Program-made: the position numbers and the translations under genes
IMG/VR virus record: IMGVR_UViG_3300032304_000966
Location: 1-25,644 of that record
Direction: 5' to 3' (one strand)
DNA length: 25,644 nucleotides
Origin: a virus
Part shown: piece after piece, positions 2,478 to 25,644 of the stretch
Numbering within the stretch: the first letter of the stretch is position 1
Layout of the letters: the number at the start of each line of letters is the position of its first letter
The notes under the pieces: generated by a model
Told to the model about the DNA's origin: nothing
What the model saw: the letters and a program-made list of their open reading frames with translations, nothing else
Database searches by the model: none

Positions 2478-3101
2478 TCAACTATAGAACTTTTTCTTGA
2501 CGATCTTTTCAAGACCAAACTTTTCAAACATCGGAGCAACCTCATTCCGAATCCAATTCCTTCTATACTTACTGTCTTGGTTGGTTTCATCTTCAATCAC
2601 ATAACCATTCAGCTTTTGACTGTTTGCATAGCTCACCATATTCTCTTTCGGAGAATGTAGAAATGGATGGCGAATACTGTATGAAGAATCATCCAACTGT
2701 GTGATTGTTGGAATTGGAATATATTCTGGACAACCGCGCAACATATTCATGATGTAACTCTCCACCGCATCATTGAGATGATGGCAAAGAACAACGTCAT
2801 GATTTAGACTGCGAAAGAAATCCAGTCTATCTTGGCGAAGATTATGCTCGACGTTGTTAAGAATGTCTTGGCTAGAGCGTGTTCCTACAACCAATTCAAT
2901 ATTCAATTCATGACAAAAGCGTTCAACGCTTTGTTGCATGATATTGTTTTGCGGTCGCAGGTTATGATTGTAGTGACACGCTTTAACACGATTGCCAAGC
3001 ATTCTATGTAGAAGGTGAAGGCAGGCGATACTATCAACACCACCACTCACCCCCACGAAAAAGGGACCATCAGGAATTAGCTTTTTATCAAAGAGAATCA
3101 T
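2478..3101 (-). CDS. tilS: TilS-like PP-loop ATPase (tRNA-Ile lysidine synthase N-domain)
   Basis: 207 residues. The PP-loop SGGVDS is at residues 19-24, YNHNLRP at 44-50, HHLNDAVE at 107-114, and the typical TilS segment DETNQDSKYRRNWIRNE at 171-187. TilS uses ATP and lysine to convert C34 of tRNA-Ile(CAU) to lysidine, changing decoding from AUG to AUA. Bacterial TilS is around 430 residues; this protein has only the catalytic N-terminal domain and lacks the C-terminal tRNA-binding domains. A purine-rich AAGGGA sits 7 nt before the ATG, one of the few good ribosome sites in the window. It could act on a phage or host tRNA, or on another substrate of the PP-loop superfamily. No tRNA gene is visible nearby. 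Confidence 0.88.
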   Translation of the reverse strand: MILFDKKLIPDGPFFVGVSGGVDSIACLHLLHRMLGNRVKACHYNHNLRPQNNIMQQSVERFCHELNIELVVGTRSSQDILNNVEHNLRQDRLDFFRSLNHDVVLCHHLNDAVESYIMNMLRGCPEYIPIPTITQLDDSSYSIRHPFLHSPKENMVSYANSQKLNGYVIEDETNQDSKYRRNWIRNEVAPMFEKFGLEKIVKKKFYS

Positions 3102-7884: not shown

Positions 7885-8586
7885 TTATTCTTCGGTGATT
7901 ACCGCATATTCAAAGGTATACTTTTCACCACTTGAATACGTCAAGGAAATATTGTTATTCCTATCATCATATTCAAAGGTATACTTTTCACCATTTGGAT
8001 ACGTTTCAGAAATCTTGTTATTCCTATCATCATATTCAAAGGTATACTTTTCACCATTTGGATACGTTTCAGAAATCTTGTTATTCCTATCATCATATTC
8101 ATAGGTGTATTTTTTACCATTTGGATACGTTTCAGAAATCTTGTTATTCCTATCATCATATTCAAAGGTATACTTTTCACCATTTGGATACGTCTGAGAA
8201 ATCCTGTTATTCCTCTCATCATATTCAAAGGTCCACTTGTCACCATCTGGATAAGTCTTGGAAATCTTATTATTCCGTTTATCATATTCATAGATGGGAA
8301 ACCAAGACTTCATCCATTCAGTATATTCCTCTTCAGGAATGACACGGATGACCTTGAGCTTATCCGTAACAGACTTGTCGCCTTCAGTATGCACATTACC
8401 AAGGATTTCAATTTCCAATAGAATGAAATCCGAAGAAGGATTATAGTAATTGAAAACGTCTTCCATCTTTTGGCAGAAATGGAATCCATGTTCACAGATT
8501 TTCATCCGATCAGCAGTGTAAGTCTTACCGACTTTATACTCTTGATTACGGCATTTGAAATTGTAGGTGGCTTTGTAAGCGATCAT
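7885..8586 (-). CDS. YD-repeat protein, complete, 233 aa
   Basis: Residues 1-99 form the same N-terminal domain as the partial gene at the left edge (MIAYKATYNFKCRNQEYKVG, GFHFCQKMEDVFNYY, EGDKSVTDKLKVIRVI). Residues 100-225 are six 21-residue repeats, each starting EYD-x-RNN-x-IS and carrying TYPNGEKYTF or a close variant, followed by the tail EYAVITEE. The repeat resembles the YD/RHS motif that forms beta-hairpin shells in secreted toxins and cell-wall proteins, but here there are only six units, no signal peptide and no toxin domain. It is more likely an intracellular binding or scaffold protein; this is inference. ATG 8584-8586 lies 6 nt after the hexamer of promoter P6. Confidence 0.9.
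   Translation of the reverse strand: MIAYKATYNFKCRNQEYKVGKTYTADRMKICEHGFHFCQKMEDVFNYYNPSSDFILLEIEILGNVHTEGDKSVTDKLKVIRVIPEEEYTEWMKSWFPIYEYDKRNNKISKTYPDGDKWTFEYDERNNRISQTYPNGEKYTFEYDDRNNKISETYPNGKKYTYEYDDRNNKISETYPNGEKYTFEYDDRNNKISETYPNGEKYTFEYDDRNNNISLTYSSGEKYTFEYAVITEE
7912..8289 (-). repeat. Six tandem 63-bp units coding YD repeats
   Basis: Each unit encodes 21 residues. The inner units are almost identical in DNA as well as protein, pointing to recent copy-number change; the outermost units are more diverged. The copies at both window edges use the same unit, with different numbers and order. Confidence 0.95.
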
Positions 8587-8882: not shown

Positions 8883-10388
8883 TTAGAAGTTCTTGGCGAC
8901 CAGTTCGCGAATTTCAGCCAGCGATGTTTCTCGGATGATTTTGCCATCTTCGAAAACAGTCTTGAGTTCTCCTCCAGCTTCTTCTTCAAGAGTGCATTGG
9001 TCCTTCAACACATATTCTCCATCAACAATATCAACACGAAGCAATCCCTTTGCGGAAACCTTCATACCATTATCAGTTTTTGGAGCTTTGAAAAGATCAT
9101 AACCGACTCCATCCACAAGTGCCCAAGTTGCTTTTTGAGCAATGCCAAGACTATCACGGGTAGCATAATTCATACTGTATGAACCAACTCCAAACACAAT
9201 ATTTGAAGATGCAAATCCTTTCTTCTTCAAGCCCTCCAAAATATTATAAATGACTGGCTGTGTGCATGAATCACCATAAATCAACCCAACCCGTTCATTG
9301 AGAACTTTGTAGCCTTTATCAGACAAAGTGCCTCCGAAAACATCCCAAAGACATTCAACGGCCCCTTTATATTCTGGAGAATTCACAGGAGCATCTGGAT
9401 CACCACACACAATCTTAACTGGATCACCACTATCAGGACGAAAGACTACCTTAGCAAGACCCAATGCATTGACCTCTCGATTGAGAATATCATCTTTAAG
9501 ATTGGTTACAGTCTCAGTAACAATCTTGAAGAAATCATAGGTGTCGCTAACAAGACTGACGATACCAGTTGGGTAATCTTCTGTAATAGCCTTTCGGAAA
9601 AATTCCTCTTCACTTGTAAGTGCGGTTTCCAAAGAAGTCACGGCATGCTCACTTGCAGGAACCGAAGCTGCGATAAATTCCTTCTCAGCATCGGCATTGT
9701 AATAATCCTCCAAATAATCAATTGCTGATACAGTATCAGTTCCATAAGTGCTGAGAAGAAGTCCTGCGCCCGAAGCTTTAGCGTCATATCGACCGCTCAT
9801 TCCTCGAAATTCGAAACCGTGCAATTGGAACATAGTATGATTTCGATTGCCAACAGTTTCATCAGCATAAATATTAATCAGATTCTTGTAAGATTTGACC
9901 AAAGTTGCTGTATAACAAGGCTTCCACAGTTCACATGACAATACTGTTTCCAAAAAGTTAGTCAACCAAGCATATTCATTGTGTGTATTAACAATGGTCA
10001 AGAATGGAACTTTCATTGGAACGGACGCACCTTCTGGAAGTGCTTTGATCTTAATTGGCAAGTATCCCAAATCATGAAGTTTTTCAAACTTTTCAACTGA
10101 AATACTATCCTTACCAAGAAAGGTATCCAGCCTACGCTTAAACCGCTTGATCACCTCATTCTTTGGCTTATTGAAGAACTCACGATTCCATTCATCAATA
10201 AGATAATCTTTGATGAATCCTTGAAGACTGAAAAACACAGCTTTACCATCATAAAATTCTGGCATTAGCGGCATGTATTTAGATGTTCTTGGAGTAAGAT
10301 TGGAATAAATCTTTTCAGTTCGTGCGTCCATGAATCCAGCGTGGGACAACTTGTAAGCATCTGTATTTGTCAACGGATTTGTGTTCAT
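8883..10388 (-). CDS. nadV: Nicotinamide phosphoribosyltransferase (NAMPT/NadV) family
   Basis: 501 residues, the normal length for this family. Recognisable active-site blocks in order: NTDAYKLSH at the start, HGFEFRG (190-196, substrate Arg), GTDT (216-219), VPASEHAVTS (243-252, catalytic-type His248), VSDTYDFF (280-287) and FRPDSGDP (316-323), plus GVGSYSMNYATRDSLG near the end. The usual reaction joins nicotinamide and PRPP to give NMN for NAD+ salvage. In the phage NARP1 pathway, enzymes of this same family instead use ADP-ribose pyrophosphate and make NAD+ in one step; sequence alone does not decide which. A PRPP-synthetase-like gene lies 4 kb away. Its leader holds two TATAAT boxes, one of them 8 nt before the ATG. 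Confidence 0.95.
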   Translation of the reverse strand: MNTNPLTNTDAYKLSHAGFMDARTEKIYSNLTPRTSKYMPLMPEFYDGKAVFFSLQGFIKDYLIDEWNREFFNKPKNEVIKRFKRRLDTFLGKDSISVEKFEKLHDLGYLPIKIKALPEGASVPMKVPFLTIVNTHNEYAWLTNFLETVLSCELWKPCYTATLVKSYKNLINIYADETVGNRNHTMFQLHGFEFRGMSGRYDAKASGAGLLLSTYGTDTVSAIDYLEDYYNADAEKEFIAASVPASEHAVTSLETALTSEEEFFRKAITEDYPTGIVSLVSDTYDFFKIVTETVTNLKDDILNREVNALGLAKVVFRPDSGDPVKIVCGDPDAPVNSPEYKGAVECLWDVFGGTLSDKGYKVLNERVGLIYGDSCTQPVIYNILEGLKKKGFASSNIVFGVGSYSMNYATRDSLGIAQKATWALVDGVGYDLFKAPKTDNGMKVSAKGLLRVDIVDGEYVLKDQCTLEEEAGGELKTVFEDGKIIRETSLAEIRELVAKNF

Positions 10389-12079: not shown

Positions 12080-12307
12080 TTACTCCCAAATGATTTCTTT
12101 TAAACCACCGACGACCATTCGAAGAATATAACCATGCTCAATTAGCATTTTTTCAACCGGATAAGGTATTGGCTTCTTAATCATAACGTAAGTCTTACAT
12201 TCCTCAATTGCATCATCAATAGCTTTTTCAATTTCAGCAATAAGATCCTTGTGTTTTTCAAGTGAACGTTCAAACGTTTTTATCTTAGCAAGTGCCGCTG
12301 TCTTCAT
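12080..12307 (-). CDS. Hypothetical protein, 75 aa
   Basis: Begins with a charged helix (MKTAALAKIKTFERSLEKHKDLIAEIEKAIDDAIEEC split here for description: residues 1-37) with heptad character, then YVMIKKPIPYPVEKMLIEHGYILRMV and a short end with GGLKEIIWE. A short coiled coil followed by a small alpha/beta piece is likely. The ATG overlaps the stop of the NADAR gene by 4 nt (ATGA), so the two are probably translationally coupled. No family recognised. Confidence 0.7.
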   Translation of the reverse strand: MKTAALAKIKTFERSLEKHKDLIAEIEKAIDDAIEECKTYVMIKKPIPYPVEKMLIEHGYILRMVVGGLKEIIWE

Positions 12308-12834
12308 AGCGTTTGAATAATCTTATTCCGTGCTTCGACAATAGCTTGACCAAGCAAGTTCATACCTTTCCACTTGTCTCTATCGAGAACATCGGGATCA
12401 TTTTCAGACATACCAATACCCCATATTTTATCTTCAGAAGAAGCTTCCACAAGTTCAAATCCATCTGTAAGAAGAAGCAAGTCCTTGAATTTGGAATTTT
12501 GGGAAAACTTCATAAAGTTGATATCTCGAACGATATTATAACGATGTTCTGTCCACAGCGCATCATCATAATTTTTGATCGTTCGTCCAATGGCTTTCAT
12601 GTTTCTAGGATCATCTTGAGCTAGAATGGTTTTCATAGCGTCGTAATCCTTGAAGAGCATAGCCTTCTTATACATCATTGCCTGTTCAGCGCAATTAAAA
12701 GCAATATCAACGTCTTTATCATAGAAGTCACACTTCGCCCATTGGCTAAAGATACCACCCCAAAAGAAGATTTGAAGAGTGTTTAGGGATACGGTTGCTC
12801 CCAATAGATCAGATTTGAATAGTCTAGTTGTCAT
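12304..12834 (-). CDS. NADAR (YbiA-like) family protein
   Basis: 176 residues with the NADAR blocks: FFWGGIFSQWAKCDF (23-37), FNCAEQAMMYKKAMLFKD (46-63, with the family's key Glu50), DDPRNMKAIGRTIKNYDDALW (74-94), and LVEASSEDKIWGIG followed by GMNLLGQAIVEAR near the end. Family members are N-glycosidases acting on riboflavin intermediates or, in phages and toxin systems, remove ADP-ribose from guanine in nucleic acid. In this window, with NAMPT-like, PRPP-synthetase-like and macro-domain genes, reversal of ADP-ribosylation by a host defence toxin is the more likely role; this is inference. It is preceded by a zincin gene with a 9-nt gap. Confidence 0.93.
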   Translation of the reverse strand: MTTRLFKSDLLGATVSLNTLQIFFWGGIFSQWAKCDFYDKDVDIAFNCAEQAMMYKKAMLFKDYDAMKTILAQDDPRNMKAIGRTIKNYDDALWTEHRYNIVRDINFMKFSQNSKFKDLLLLTDGFELVEASSEDKIWGIGMSENDPDVLDRDKWKGMNLLGQAIVEARNKIIQTL

Positions 12835-14446: not shown

Positions 14447-15388
14447 TTATACCAAAAACTTAAAACATGTGAAATTTTCACAATCTACCGATTCGTCCCA
14501 ATTATGTTTTGTATTGACAGTATACGCATGGTCAAAATGTTGACACACATTTTGAATACCTTCAACCGTATCTGAATGTGCCGTAAACAGGTAAATCGGC
14601 CCCGGATTTTTTTCTTTCAATTTTTTGGCCAAGCCTATAAACGTCCCTCCTTTACAATTCACGTCATCAAAAATAATGGATGGATGATTGCCAAGATCAT
14701 CAGCTTGCACAAAGAAATCCTTGAGCGAACCATTCCTAACGTCGCGAATCTTTTCGCATCGAATCATATCGAATTGAATGTCAGGAAATTCATTAGCAAG
14801 ATGCGTTGCAATCTTACCAACACGCTTACCAGCACCAGCATCAGGGCAAACGATATTAATGTTTTTGATGGTGCGGTCATCTTGAATCATACGAAGAACA
14901 ATAGACTTTGCATAGTTATGGTCATCAACAACCACAACATTGTTCAGAAGAGCAGGTGTCACTTCGCTATGAGGAGTGAAGATCAGAACTTGCGAGAAGC
15001 CGCAATCATTGATAAGCTTGGCAAAGACAGCAACAGTAAGCGGTTCACCAGCATTACAAACACGGTCTTGACGAGCAGCGGGAAAGTAAGGAATAACAAG
15101 CTTGAGATTGGTAAATCCTGCACGGCGAGCAGCGTCAACAGCAAGGATAATATCCATAAAGTCTGCCGCGCTATTGACTCGATGAGTGATAATCAAATCA
15201 CCGGGATTCTCCAGAGCAACATCAGTTGTAATCTGGAAATGAGGTTCTCCACCCGGAAAGACAAGCTTCTTGAACTGAAGAAAAAACAAATTGGTGGTAT
15301 CAGCAAATGGACTGAAATCAGTATCCAAGTTAAGGACACAGGTTTCATCGTTCTTCTTAATCCAATGTGTGTGTAGGTGTTGTTTCAT
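14447..15388 (-). CDS. prs: Ribose-phosphate pyrophosphokinase-like (PRPP synthetase family)
   Basis: 313 residues, the family length. Visible motifs: FPGGEPHFQI (44-53), NSAADFMDIILAVDAARRAG (72-91), PYFPAARQDR (100-109, ATP-binding), H140 in FTPHSEV, CPDAGAGKR (181-189) and DDVNCKGGT (241-249, the phosphoribosyl loop). The usual reaction is ribose 5-phosphate plus ATP to PRPP. Several sugar-binding positions differ from the standard enzyme (DTGGT is CKGGT; DLH is TPH; FxDGE is FPGGE). Enzymes of this family in the phage NARP1 pathway pyrophosphorylate ADP-ribose, and the changes would fit that, though I cannot prove it. It follows the rIIB terminator and has its own promoter element 9 nt before the ATG. 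Confidence 0.9.
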   Translation of the reverse strand: MKQHLHTHWIKKNDETCVLNLDTDFSPFADTTNLFFLQFKKLVFPGGEPHFQITTDVALENPGDLIITHRVNSAADFMDIILAVDAARRAGFTNLKLVIPYFPAARQDRVCNAGEPLTVAVFAKLINDCGFSQVLIFTPHSEVTPALLNNVVVVDDHNYAKSIVLRMIQDDRTIKNINIVCPDAGAGKRVGKIATHLANEFPDIQFDMIRCEKIRDVRNGSLKDFFVQADDLGNHPSIIFDDVNCKGGTFIGLAKKLKEKNPGPIYLFTAHSDTVEGIQNVCQHFDHAYTVNTKHNWDESVDCENFTCFKFLV

Positions 15389-15397
15389 GATGTTTGT

Positions 15398-15418
15398 ATT
15401 TTAGCGCAGTGTTTTATT
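15398..15418 (-). promoter_or_regulatory. Promoter element P9
   Basis: Minus strand AATAAAACACTG, 3 nt, TAAAAT, then 9 nt to ATG 15386-15388. It lies just downstream of a strong terminator, so it starts a fresh transcript. Confidence 0.6.
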
Positions 15419-20292: not shown

Positions 20293-20940
20293 TCAATGAT
20301 GATCGAATGACGAAACGTTCTTCTTTCGAAGGATGGAAACAACCTCATCAATATCAAAGAATGCGGTTCCGTTGTGTGCCTTGGCATTTTCAACACCACA
20401 ATCCAGAATCTTACCAAAGTCATCCCGATCAGGGTTGATTTGCTTAAGATTGCCGTGAGAGTGTCCACAAAGACATACTCGTCCCTTATTCTGATCATGA
20501 AAGATCAACGGACTCATATGAGTGCAGAAAAATCTATCATGGTCGATATCAAGAAGAAATGATTCTCCAATCATGGTGACATTAGGAGAGATACGAAGCG
20601 GATAGATTTCACACTTCTCGAATCCTTCTGGCAAAGCAGCCCGGTATGCTTGATACACACCAGAGTTATGATTACCCCAAACCATCAGAGTCTCACAAGG
20701 AATGCGATTGAGGAAATCAATGATCGGACCGGGACCAACACTAAGTCCAACATCACCAAGACAGACAAGAAGACTGTCTGGATCAAGTTGAGCGAATTGA
20801 TCGTCCATCCAATCATTATGTTCCTTTGGAGTAAGGAATCCGCGAGGACCATACAGAAACTCTTTATCGTGTCCGTAGTGAATGTCACTACAAACTTTTA
20901 CACTTGAGTAATCCTTACGATACGTTTTGATCTTTAGCAT
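20293..20940 (-). CDS. Calcineurin-like metallophosphoesterase
   Basis: 215 residues with the full metal-binding set: SDIHYGHD (18-25), LGDVG (61-65), WGNHNS (88-93), CTHMSP and CGHSHGN in the second half. This fold removes phosphate from proteins, nucleotides or RNA ends depending on the member. The start at ATG 20938-20940 is favoured over one nine codons upstream because it shortens the overlap with the thioredoxin gene to 26 nt. It is the last gene of a run with RNA ligase and thioredoxin, so a 3'- or 2'-phosphatase role in RNA repair is a reasonable guess. Confidence 0.92.
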   Translation of the reverse strand: MLKIKTYRKDYSSVKVCSDIHYGHDKEFLYGPRGFLTPKEHNDWMDDQFAQLDPDSLLVCLGDVGLSVGPGPIIDFLNRIPCETLMVWGNHNSGVYQAYRAALPEGFEKCEIYPLRISPNVTMIGESFLLDIDHDRFFCTHMSPLIFHDQNKGRVCLCGHSHGNLKQINPDRDDFGKILDCGVENAKAHNGTAFFDIDEVVSILRKKNVSSFDHH

Positions 20941-21169
20941 GGTTTTTGATTTTAGTGATGATATCATCCATTCCCTGAATGGTTTCGATTAGTTCGTCAT
21001 TTTCATTAAGAACGACCAATCGTGGAACTGATTTAATTCCGTGTTTTTGAAAAAATTCAATATTGGATTCAAGCTCCATTGAATCCACTTCAAGAGAAGC
21101 GGTCTTCAATTTATTCTTGAGTTGAGCGCATGGCCCGCAGAATTTAGCAGTAGCTAGGATTAGTTTCAT
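20915..21169 (-). CDS. Thioredoxin/glutaredoxin-like protein
   Basis: 84 residues with the active-site CGPC at 11-14 (ATAKFCGPCAQLK) and the cis-proline segment SVPRLVVL at 47-54. This is a minimal thioredoxin fold like those of T4-type phages, which reduce ribonucleotide reductase or other phage enzymes. No reductase gene is in this window. It lies 6 nt after the RNA ligase gene and overlaps the metallophosphoesterase gene. Confidence 0.93.
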   Translation of the reverse strand: MKLILATAKFCGPCAQLKNKLKTASLEVDSMELESNIEFFQKHGIKSVPRLVVLNENDELIETIQGMDDIITKIKNHAKDQNVS

Positions 21170-21175
21170 AAATTA

Positions 21176-22267
21176 TTATTTGTTGAGAACCTTTTCAAGT
21201 TCAGCGTTGACAGCGTTTTCAACCATCTTATCAGACAATTCTCGATTGTCAAGTAGAGTGAATGCATGTCCAGTCTGCCATCCATGAAGATCTTGTTGGA
21301 TAATTTGAGCTTGTTCTTTGCGAGTTTCAATATCCTTGACAAGTTTAACCACGTTCTTCACACGTTCAACCTTCTTGAGATAGTTGTTGTATGCTTCAAC
21401 GATAGGCACCATATCATCCTTAATCTTCTCAGCAATCTCATAGTCAAGTGTGGTTTCAACATACTTGTAGAAATCTTCAACTGTGGTAAACTTAGGAGAA
21501 GCCAAGAACACATCAAGAACTTGATTGATATTCTTGATGCCAGTAGCAAGCTTATGAAGCTGGCAGTATTCATCCCCCTTGATCTTCTTCAAGGTCTGAC
21601 CATCAGGAGAAACAACAACAACACCTTCTCGACCTCGCCAAAGAGTCACATCAGCGATGCAATCATGGATATTAGCATACTTGAAACGTGCAGGGCGATT
21701 GACATTGATATGATCGCCAATGTAATCCAGCGTTCCCGGATCAAGATATTCATAATCAGAGTGACGAATCGCACCAACAAGAGTCAGGGTAGGTTCATTG
21801 TGTTCCCGTAAACAAATGATGTTGCTAGGTGTAGTCCATTCAAAAAGAAATGATGCAGTCTCAGCGTTAAGATATGCATTGTCAAAAGCAAGCGGATACT
21901 TCTTGATAAGAAGATCAATTTCATCACCGTTGTTCATCTGGCGAGCATCAGTAGTGCCGCGAGTGCGGATGATGTGCTTACCCTTATACTTGCTAACGCA
22001 CAACAAACTACCATCAAGCTTGTGAAAAGCAGTAAACTTCCAATCATTATCCCAAGGCTGAAACTCTGGACGCTCAGAAAAATTCACAAACTTCTTGAAA
22101 CCAAGGCTGATAACCTTGTGATCGTCCTTTCGAAGCAAGCAGCTACGAAAGTGAGCATTTGAATCATCCCAATGCGTTCCCATATCAGTAGGAGTAATGA
22201 GAAGGCATTCATCGCCATCGACCACAACATCCTTGATATTGAACTGTTCTGTATTCGGTAACTTCAT
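21176..22267 (-). CDS. rnlA: RNA ligase, Rnl1 (T4 RnlA) family
   Basis: 363 residues (T4 Rnl1 is 374). Nucleotidyltransferase motifs: motif I KLDGS at 83-87 (Lys83 takes AMP), FLFEWTTPSN at 140-149 (motif III region), REGVVVV at 213-219 (motif IV) and LKKIK at 226-230 (motif V). The N-terminal CLLRKDDHKVISLGFKKFVNF fits the beta subdomain before motif I. The C-terminal 130 residues are helical, as in Rnl1. The enzyme joins 3'-OH and 5'-phosphate RNA ends, in T4 to mend tRNA cut by host anticodon nucleases. Promoter P12 lies 7 nt before the ATG. Confidence 0.93.
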   Translation of the reverse strand: MKLPNTEQFNIKDVVVDGDECLLITPTDMGTHWDDSNAHFRSCLLRKDDHKVISLGFKKFVNFSERPEFQPWDNDWKFTAFHKLDGSLLCVSKYKGKHIIRTRGTTDARQMNNGDEIDLLIKKYPLAFDNAYLNAETASFLFEWTTPSNIICLREHNEPTLTLVGAIRHSDYEYLDPGTLDYIGDHINVNRPARFKYANIHDCIADVTLWRGREGVVVVSPDGQTLKKIKGDEYCQLHKLATGIKNINQVLDVFLASPKFTTVEDFYKYVETTLDYEIAEKIKDDMVPIVEAYNNYLKKVERVKNVVKLVKDIETRKEQAQIIQQDLHGWQTGHAFTLLDNRELSDKMVENAVNAELEKVLNK

Positions 22268-22274
22268 GGTTGCT

Positions 22275-22295
22275 ACATTAGAGCAGTGTTTTATG
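22275..22295 (-). promoter_or_regulatory. Promoter element P12 (RNA ligase)
   Basis: Minus strand ATAAAACACTG, 3 nt, TAATGT, then 7 nt to ATG 22265-22267. Confidence 0.55.
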
Positions 22296-22297
22296 AA

Positions 22298-22711
22298 TCA
22301 AATGAGCTTCAGATTATTGCGGATGTTCGCTTCCTGACGTTCAAGAACGTTCTCAGGAACGTTATGAACATTGCTGTTGCCGTGGCGATTCTCCATGACA
22401 ATGTGAAAGACAGTAGCGCCAACCTTAGCAGCTTCCTGTTCGTAAAACTTGCATTCAGCAGGAGTCGTATTGGTATTTGCAACAACAATACCTTCCACAG
22501 TAGCTTCATTAAGAGCTTCCATGAAATTGACCTTGCATTCAGCATGAGCATTGGAAAGCTTGGTAGCATCAAAATTATAATTACCATCGGCATCAGTAAA
22601 GTAATCATCAGCGCAGACACTAACCCATCCAATACGAGAGGTCAGAAGTTTTGCGAATGTGCTCTTACCTGCACCCGACACGGAGCGCAATAGGATAATT
22701 TGTTTGTTCAT
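22298..22711 (-). CDS. P-loop polynucleotide kinase-like protein
   Basis: 137 residues. Walker A SVSGAGKST (10-18) and CADDYF (33-38) in the place of the phospho-acceptor Asp of T4 polynucleotide kinase, then VVANTNTTPAECKFYEQEA and an arginine-containing lid (MENRHGNSNVHNVPENVLERQEANI). It matches the kinase half of T4 Pnkp and its relatives; the phosphatase half is absent. The likely reaction is 5'-phosphorylation of RNA or DNA. It lies directly after the 2H phosphoesterase gene (1-nt gap) and just upstream of RNA ligase, so it probably heals 5'-OH ends before sealing. Confidence 0.88.
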   Translation of the reverse strand: MNKQIILLRSVSGAGKSTFAKLLTSRIGWVSVCADDYFTDADGNYNFDATKLSNAHAECKVNFMEALNEATVEGIVVANTNTTPAECKFYEQEAAKVGATVFHIVMENRHGNSNVHNVPENVLERQEANIRNNLKLI

Positions 22712-22712
22712 A

Positions 22713-23147
22713 TTATTTGATTGTGATTAGTTCAGGCCACCACAAACGGTCGCCATTTTTATTTGTTCCTAGAGTGATATGCATTCCTTTGTAGCCATCA
22801 GATTCGACGACATTAAGATCGTTTTTAATTGATTCGATCTGGTCGGAAAATACACGAAGGTAAAACATTACAAAACCTTTGTTCAATCCACCTCTCACAG
22901 GATTGACATCATATTTGAACGATACGACTTTGCCATCGTATTTCTTCTTGGCAAGATTGTAATTGATGTTTGAATGCAGCTTCGGATTTGTAATAGTGAT
23001 ATGCGCTCCATAAAGAGGAGTATGTAGATCAATCCAATATTCACGTTTGATGAACCAGAGATAATAACGGATGAAATCTGAATCAAGCTCAACAACAATT
23101 CGTTGAGGATTCATATTCACCTTGAGCTTGCCTAGTCCAGATCGCAT
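22713..23147 (-). CDS. 2H phosphoesterase-like protein
   Basis: 144 residues with two H-x-T motifs, AHITIT (His49) and MHITLG (His123), 74 residues apart, the spacing of the 2H phosphoesterase fold (LigT, eukaryotic CPDases, Acb1). Such enzymes open 2',3'-cyclic phosphates or cleave 2'-5'/3'-5' linked oligonucleotides. Beside kinase and ligase genes, an RNA-end CPDase is likely; the alternative is an Acb1-like anti-CBASS enzyme. Two starts are possible: ATG 23147, exactly 6 nt after TAGTGT of promoter P13, or ATG 23114 with AAGGTG just upstream, one of the few good Shine-Dalgarno sequences here. Either leaves both motifs intact. Confidence 0.78.
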   Translation of the reverse strand: MRSGLGKLKVNMNPQRIVVELDSDFIRYYLWFIKREYWIDLHTPLYGAHITITNPKLHSNINYNLAKKKYDGKVVSFKYDVNPVRGGLNKGFVMFYLRVFSDQIESIKNDLNVVESDGYKGMHITLGTNKNGDRLWWPELITIK

Positions 23148-23153
23148 GTCATT

Positions 23154-23174
23154 ACACTACCGCAGTGTTTTATT
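23154..23174 (-). promoter_or_regulatory. Promoter element P13
   Basis: Minus strand AATAAAACACTG, 3 nt, TAGTGT, then 6 nt to ATG 23145-23147. It overlaps the stop of the preceding gene (23173-23175). Confidence 0.55.
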
Positions 23175-24949: not shown

Positions 24950-25426
24950 TTATTTGGCATATTCTACTACGAGAATATCAATATCAGAATTTTCGAAAAT
25001 TGTTTCTAGCATGGCCATGACAATGCGCCAATCTCCACCAGCGCGATCACATGCCATTTTGTAAGGGACGCCAAGGGTTTTGAATCCTTTGGTTTCCATT
25101 AGATTCTTAGTCTGCCGCAGTGTTTCATACAGAGATTCGTAATTAACAAAACGAGAACCATCGTAGCCATAAAGGTTTTGTGCATGGAGATTCACAATCG
25201 CCTTGGTCTTGTCATCAATAAAGACCGAAATGGTTCCTAGAAAAAGACCACCAGCATCTTCTTCATGTTGCTTGTAAGCAAGATAGGCACCGGGAATTTC
25301 ATTTTTGATTTGGAGAGCAATACCGCTACCCATAACGCCTTGGCAATTGCAGCAATGTGCAATGACATCGCAATCGCTATCGTTGTAGTATTCCAGTAGG
25401 TCTCCCTTGGTTGTTTTAATGTTCAT
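24950..25426 (-). CDS. Macro-domain protein (ADP-ribose binding or hydrolysis)
   Basis: 158 residues forming a single macro domain: KGDLLEYYNDSDCDVIAHCCNCQGVMGSGIALQI divided over 7-40, with the ADP-ribose loop VMGSGIA (31-37), VNLHAQNLYG (78-87), and GVPYKMACDRAGGDW near 118-132. The last block resembles yeast Poa1p and related ADP-ribose-1''-phosphatases; other macro domains remove ADP-ribose from proteins or DNA (DarG type). Which applies here cannot be read from sequence. The gene has promoter element P14 9 nt upstream and is followed by an AAA ATPase. Confidence 0.92.
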   Translation of the reverse strand: MNIKTTKGDLLEYYNDSDCDVIAHCCNCQGVMGSGIALQIKNEIPGAYLAYKQHEEDAGGLFLGTISVFIDDKTKAIVNLHAQNLYGYDGSRFVNYESLYETLRQTKNLMETKGFKTLGVPYKMACDRAGGDWRIVMAMLETIFENSDIDILVVEYAK

Positions 25427-25435
25427 GATGTTTGT

Positions 25436-25456
25436 AGTCTAGCGCGGTGTTTTATT
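25436..25456 (-). promoter_or_regulatory. Promoter element P14 (macro-domain gene)
   Basis: Minus strand AATAAAACACCG (one change from the usual box), 3 nt, TAGACT, then 9 nt to ATG 25424-25426. It contains the stop codon (25452-25454) of the YD-repeat gene. Confidence 0.55.
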
Positions 25457-25644
25457 CTTCGGTGATTACCGCATATTCATAGGCGGTCTTGTAACCATTT
25501 GGATACGTCTGGGAAATCAGATTATTCCTATCATCATATTCAAAGGTGTATTTTTCACCACTTGGATACGTCTTAGAAATCATGTTATTCCTATCATCAT
25601 ATTCAAAGGTATACTTTTCACCACTTGAATACGTCAAGGAAATA
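25452..25644 (-). CDS. YD-repeat protein, C-terminal part, runs off the right edge
   Basis: 63 visible codons before the stop: the end of one repeat (ISLTYSSGEKYTF), two full 21-residue repeats beginning EYDDRNN, the second ending NGYKTAY, and the same tail EYAVITEE as the complete paralogue. The upstream part is outside the window. The final 36 bases repeat the first 36 bases of the window, so it may be the far end of the gene that starts at 419, or of another paralogue. Confidence 0.85.
   Translation of the reverse strand, partial: ISLTYSSGEKYTFEYDDRNNMISKTYPSGEKYTFEYDDRNNLISQTYPNGYKTAYEYAVITEE
25609..25644. repeat. 36-bp terminal direct repeat, right copy
   Basis: Identical to 1-36 and 7916-7951; see the left copy. 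In the minus direction it encodes the same repeat segment. Confidence 0.9.

Follow-up and report, generated by a model that had tools for sequence, protein, structure and literature searches.

A five-gene locus was analysed in a 25,644 nt (25.6 kb) stretch of viral DNA, positions 1 to 25,644 of IMG/VR virus record IMGVR_UViG_3300032304_000966, referred to here as the window. The locus is considered below as a probable split RNA end-repair cassette. Five open reading frames (ORFs) lie consecutively and head-to-tail on the minus strand. They encode a 2H phosphoesterase (2H; 22713..23147, 144 aa), a P-loop polynucleotide-kinase-like protein without a phosphatase half (22298..22711, 137 aa), a T4 Rnl1-type ATP-dependent RNA ligase (21176..22267, 363 aa), a small thioredoxin (Trx; 20915..21169, 84 aa) and a calcineurin-like metallophosphoesterase (MPE; listed ORF 20293..20967, 224 aa). 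Since homologous MPEs begin at what is the second Met here, its start is probably at 20940 rather than 20967, with a probable extent of 20293..20940; from that start the gene overlaps the thioredoxin ORF by 26 nt. The remaining gaps are 1 nt between 2H and kinase, 30 nt between kinase and ligase and 6 nt between ligase and thioredoxin.

The five consecutive genes reported in a first-pass annotation of this DNA were recovered in the ORF list, and their types were confirmed by a PHROG match for each protein: 2H to PHROG 12204 (5.7e-17), kinase to 2071 (8.4e-34), ligase to 562 (6.1e-34, residues 31-355), thioredoxin to 22 (4.6e-7) and MPE to 547, a phosphoesterase family (1.6e-21). The Pfam cut-offs were passed by AAA_33, RNA_lig_T4_1 (PF09511; 32.4 bits, cut-off 28.3) and Thioredoxin (PF00085; 25.9 bits, cut-off 23.5). 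2H-SAK (18.3 bits, cut-off 27) and Metallophos (20.1 bits, cut-off 21.5) scored under theirs. At the DNA level, a search against known phages gave no match to the window.

In the ligase, nucleotidyltransferase motifs I, III, IV and V are intact. Residues K83, E143, E214-G215, K228/K230 and Y234 align with K99, E159, E227-G228, K240/K242 and Y246 of T4 Rnl1, and the crystal sequence of T4 Rnl1 was found, weakly, by phmmer. The NCBIfam TIGR02308 equivalog cut-off was not reached (50.9 bits vs 242.25). Judged by its sequence, the protein belongs to the same superfamily branch as T4 RnlA and is not an equivalog by the TIGR02308 rule. Motif V is followed by some 130 residues, which the PHROG 562 alignment covers as far as residue 355; the alignment with T4 Rnl1 is weak in this part, where the T4 enzyme has its tRNA-specific C-terminal domain.

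The kinase matched PHROG 505, the T4-type kinase-phosphatase family of 295 positions, at 6.1e-9 and only over positions 2-136. This coverage and the length of the protein bore out the earlier claim that the phosphatase half is missing. The match to the T4 Pnkp kinase structure 1ly1 was weak (E 0.021). The P-loop lysine K16 is kept in 89/93 homologs and the catalytic D35 in 90/93.

Both H-x-T/S motifs of the 2H superfamily are present in the window 2H, and its catalytic tetrad (H49-x-T51 / H123-x-T125) is nearly invariant, with H49 in 32, H123 in 33 and T125 in 31 of 33 unique homologs. 2H-SAK was the sole Pfam 2H model touched by this family, and the member from phage GAP32 passes its cut-off. 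No solved structure was matched by phmmer. The AlphaFold model (pLDDT 86) was used for a fold search, in which the 43 top rows were all 2H enzymes (Z 4.4-7.2), followed by a drop to 2.5; with Z below 8, this fold match counts only jointly with the H-x-T/S motifs.

The two-metal ligands of the MPE (D28, H30, D72, N99, H100, H150, H169 and H171, numbered from start 20967) are kept in 98-100% of 80 homologs, and a relative in contig L050 passes the Metallophos cut-off (25.4 bits). The MPE model (pLDDT 92.6) gave 1xm7 as its best fold match (Z 15.7), followed by LpxH (Z 10-11.6). A phmmer search of the MPE against solved structures found no match. The phosphatase of Clostridium thermocellum Pnkp was absent among the fold matches listed, an absence that proves nothing. 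No relative of the window MPE turned up when prokaryote genomes were scanned, so the protein has no known cellular source. The thioredoxin carries a CGPC motif, each Cys of the CxxC being found in 17/22 unique homologs.

The order 2H-kinase-Rnl1-Trx-MPE was found by profile searches of anchored loci in 13 IMG/VR contigs besides the window, part of them near-identical to one another, and one further contig has the same five genes but with 2H shifted to the end. This recurrence exceeds chance. In the nearest relative, a 48 kb contig, the order is the same at 78-97% identity and the ligase gene is interrupted: the region L006:8881-10969 holds a 59-aa ligase remnant (98% identical to that of the window), an HNH endonuclease ORF and a complete ligase ORF whose start has diverged. 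In more distant contigs all five genes are retained at 29-47% protein identity, with extra genes interspersed. In most relatives of the cassette the thioredoxin gene has the ligase on one side and the MPE on the other, and it belongs to the conserved cassette. A search for two cassette domains fused in one ORF found none.

Linkage was also seen in scans that used either the MPE or the kinase as anchor and gave 149 loci, clustered at 70% identity into 34 clusters for each anchor. Every neighbour counted around the MPE shared its strand: kinase in 24 clusters, Rnl1 in 17, 2H in 12 and Trx in 8. Near the kinase, Rnl1 was found in 26 (25 on the same strand), MPE in 21, Trx in 9 and 2H in 6. In nine large relatives (records of 128-212 kb) 2H, kinase, ligase and MPE fall within 3-18 kb, for which a model of four random positions per record gives a chance of 1e-5 to 3e-3 each. 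An RNA ligase was present in all 19 of the 2H-bearing records in a test set of 26 (17 Rnl1, two Rnl2-like). The trio of kinase, ligase and MPE also occurs in cultured phages, e.g. Vibrio phages 166E36-1, Chester and pv27. In the jumbo phages RaK2, 121Q and GAP32, genes for tRNA nucleotidyltransferase or RNA ligase share a region with a 2H of the same family as that of the window.

Other contigs (L043-L064) are arranged differently, as MPE-2H-(NADAR)-kinase with no Rnl1 nearby. In two genomes that have MPE-2H pairs but lack Rnl1, Rnl2-like ligases are encoded elsewhere. These arrangements suggest that an end-healing trio of MPE, 2H and kinase can pair with other ligases. Additional ligase-domain genes were observed as well: one record (L110, genome G018) has Rnl1 and three more RNA_ligase-domain hits within ~20 kb, and in several cassette phages an RNA_ligase-domain protein of ~470 aa is encoded at a distance of a few kb from 2H.

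Gene types, gene order, linkage and, with a caveat for the kinase, intact active sites agree with one another, and on these grounds the five genes are read as a split cassette in which RNA ends would be healed and then sealed by separate proteins. The probability of this reading is put at roughly three in four. From the sequences we infer the substrate of each enzyme, the order of the steps, the tRNA target and the defence that is countered. Host metal-independent nucleases would cut RNA, most plausibly in tRNA anticodon loops, and leave 2',3'-cyclic phosphate and 5'-OH ends, the kind classically generated by anticodon nucleases such as PrrC (PMC3400036). On opening by the 2H protein, the cyclic phosphate would become a monophosphate; the MPE would take this off and leave a 2',3'-diol. 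The kinase would phosphorylate the 5'-OH end, and the Rnl1-type ligase would seal the break. The first-pass annotation had proposed such a cassette. The idea of a healing and sealing set whose tasks are distributed over separate proteins is upheld by linkage, order and active sites; the substrates of 2H and MPE and the tRNA target are putative, as is any role of the thioredoxin.

Several observations weigh against this reading. In the kinase, Arg38 of T4 Pnkp is replaced by F38, and 70/93 homologs have F as well. Arg38 matters in T4 Pnkp, and its replacement calls for caution about the kinase activity assigned from sequence. The genes are dispersed over 107 kb in genome G008 and over 35 kb in G022. 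The closest fold match of the MPE, 1xm7, is a protein of unknown function, and the fold does not settle the substrate. The jumbo phages RaK2, 121Q and GAP32 have, besides a 2H of this family, a complete T4-type fused kinase-phosphatase, so that 2H is not obviously needed there for healing. Finally, the comparison of the predicted 2H model does not separate RNA enzymes from cyclic-nucleotide enzymes. The model matched Acb1 (7t26; Z 7.2, 3.6 A over 111 residues) and CNPase (2yoz; Z 7.1, 3.2 A over 113 residues), and Usb1 and LigT-type proteins were level with these two.

RNA repair could be the work of kinase and ligase alone, with MPE and 2H acting on small nucleotides or other phosphodiesters. 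The nearness of the MPE fold to 1xm7 and LpxH would suit this division, as would the loci where MPE, 2H and kinase co-occur without a nearby Rnl1. It is nevertheless unlikely in view of the linkage of the MPE to the kinase (24/34 clusters) and to Rnl1 (17/34), and of a kinase without a phosphatase half, which would leave the ends unhealed unless the host heals them.

The 2H protein could instead be a counter-defence enzyme that cuts cyclic oligonucleotide signals, as Acb1 does, and merely adjoin the RNA repair genes. Its HxT/HxT tetrad is the same as that of Acb1 (PMC9117128), its model matches the Acb1 structure, and the jumbo phages retain it beside their fused kinase-phosphatase. The sequence families speak differently. 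BLASTP of 2H against T4 Acb1 gave no meaningful similarity, and none of 27 members of the window 2H's family matched Pfam Acb1 (PF23474) at E 0.1, while the control, T4 Acb1, matched at 2.7e-60. T4 Acb1 falls into PHROG 755 and the window 2H into PHROG 12204, and four relatives carry both the family 2H and a separate, Acb1-type gene of PHROG 755. In addition, the fold is equally near to CNPase and LigT-type enzymes, and the gene is fixed in order beside the kinase. An Acb1-like role is accordingly held to be improbable. The outcome that the first-pass annotation had set against its own proposal, a 2H protein with activity restricted to cyclic di- or trinucleotides, is made less likely by the lack of Pfam Acb1 matches and by the separate Acb1-type gene in the four relatives. 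T4 gene 57B (L166:453-911) is T4 Acb1; both its RefSeq record and PHROG 755 still label it 'RNA ligase'.

The 2H domains of Trl1 type from yeast and plants leave 2'-phosphate ends (PMC3400036), and 2H, kinase and ligase together correspond to the three activities of Trl1. The phage proteins might then follow the fungal and plant route, in which the ligase seals over a 2'-phosphate that KptA/Tpt1 and macro or NADAR enzymes would clear; macro and NADAR genes are indeed present in the window. This route is considered very unlikely. The 2'-phosphotransferase KptA/Tpt1 was found in 0/28 records (the window and 27 related records, some >200 kb, although records may be incomplete), so that removal of any 2'-phosphate must fall to the MPE or the host. 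The ligase is of T4 Rnl1 type and not of Trl1 type, and the macro protein is DarG-like and only sometimes near the cassette. The conserved MPE, which would supply a phosphatase directly, speaks against this route as well and is the natural candidate phosphatase of the split cassette.

In a more integrated version of the split cassette, all five proteins would assemble into a single RNA repair complex. The thioredoxin would be a working subunit, either a redox switch or a structural clamp like the host thioredoxin with T7 DNA polymerase. 2H and MPE would divide the healing of the 2',3' end, and a transient 2'-phosphate would direct or delay sealing. Such a complex is a speculative proposal and is unlikely to hold in this form.

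Of the known systems, T4 Pnkp (pseT) and Rnl1 (rnlA), whose genes lie close together in T4, share with the cassette the Rnl1 motif residues of the ligase, the P-loop and D35 of the kinase and presumably the same RNA ends. They differ in that healing in the cassette is split among a free kinase lacking both the phosphatase half and Arg38, a separate MPE and a 2H protein, with a thioredoxin embedded. The C. thermocellum-type bacterial Pnkp combines kinase, MPE phosphatase and ligase in one protein. It has the same three activities and its phosphatase is likewise calcineurin-like, not HAD; the cassette differs in its separate genes, its Rnl1-type ligase and the extra 2H. In fungal and plant Trl1 and in the Branchiostoma RNL with kinase/CPD, a 2H-type cyclic phosphodiesterase, a kinase and a ligase act together (PMC3400036). 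In the cassette, by contrast, the genes are separate, a phosphatase is present and relatives have no KptA/Tpt1. The likeness to T4 Acb1 lies in the 2H fold and the HxT/HxT tetrad, unaccompanied by a sequence-family match.

Large phages have been predicted to combine 2H, polynucleotide kinase, phosphoesterase and Rnl1 for RNA repair (Iyer et al. 2021, PMC7824862; Iyer et al. 2022, PMC9503650), with phosphatases mostly of HAD type and a few calcineurin-like. Given these predictions, an RNA repair set in a phage is not surprising in itself. A fixed five-gene order with a thioredoxin is not described in the sections of the two papers considered here. Relative to those sections, the present analysis contributes a five-gene order that recurs, a kinase that stands alone beside a separate MPE and 2H, a thioredoxin inside the cassette and evidence that sets this 2H apart from Acb1.

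Expression of the cassette was considered from its upstream sequences. A 20-bp element, TWAAACACTG[CA]NNTARNNTA, has 14 sites in the window on the minus strand, where 0.05 are expected, and sits a few to 37 nt ahead of an ATG. Perfect copies, that is, matches to the query pattern, precede the 2H gene (23153..23172, minus strand) and the ligase gene (22274..22293, minus strand), and on this basis the cassette probably has two expression units, 2H-kinase and ligase-Trx-MPE. Further minus-strand sites include 25435-25454 and 15397-15416. The element looks like a phage-specific promoter; in a scan of the whole collection, many copies were found only in the close relative IMGVR_UViG_3300027712_001407. 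A Shine-Dalgarno-like sequence precedes 1/25 minus-strand window genes, a scarcity that may hint at a Bacteroidota-type host.

Upstream of the cassette lies a DarG-like macro-domain protein (24950..25426, minus strand), which scored above the PF01661 cut-off and below that of NCBIfam DarG (1.1e-14). The gene was rejected as a fixed cassette member, since it is DarG-like and only some of the relatives have it within 8 kb of their cassette. It is one of four NAD-related window genes, the others being nicotin(amid)ate phosphoribosyltransferase-like (8883-10388), PRPP-synthetase-like (14447-15388) and NADAR (12304-12834). This set may serve as an NAD-restoring, ADP-ribose-clearing counter-defence. 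Related NAD-type genes lie beside the RNA repair genes of Vibrio phage Chester. The window also encodes a TilS-like tRNA lysidine synthetase domain (2478-3101; TIGR02432, 1.7e-34, above cut-off), and related genes at 7885-8586, 3-452 and 25452-25643 carry tandem repeats like YTFEYDDRNNKISETYPNG in several copies. Neither tRNA genes nor Rfam matches were found in the window.

If the split cassette operates as proposed, it would provide a compact and easily expressed set in which each healing and sealing step resides on its own polypeptide, and the share of each activity against anticodon nucleases would be testable by removal of single genes. It would raise the question of why a thioredoxin has been kept inside an RNA repair operon. 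It would also mean that these phages have swapped the fused kinase-phosphatase of T4 for a two-enzyme 3'-end pathway.

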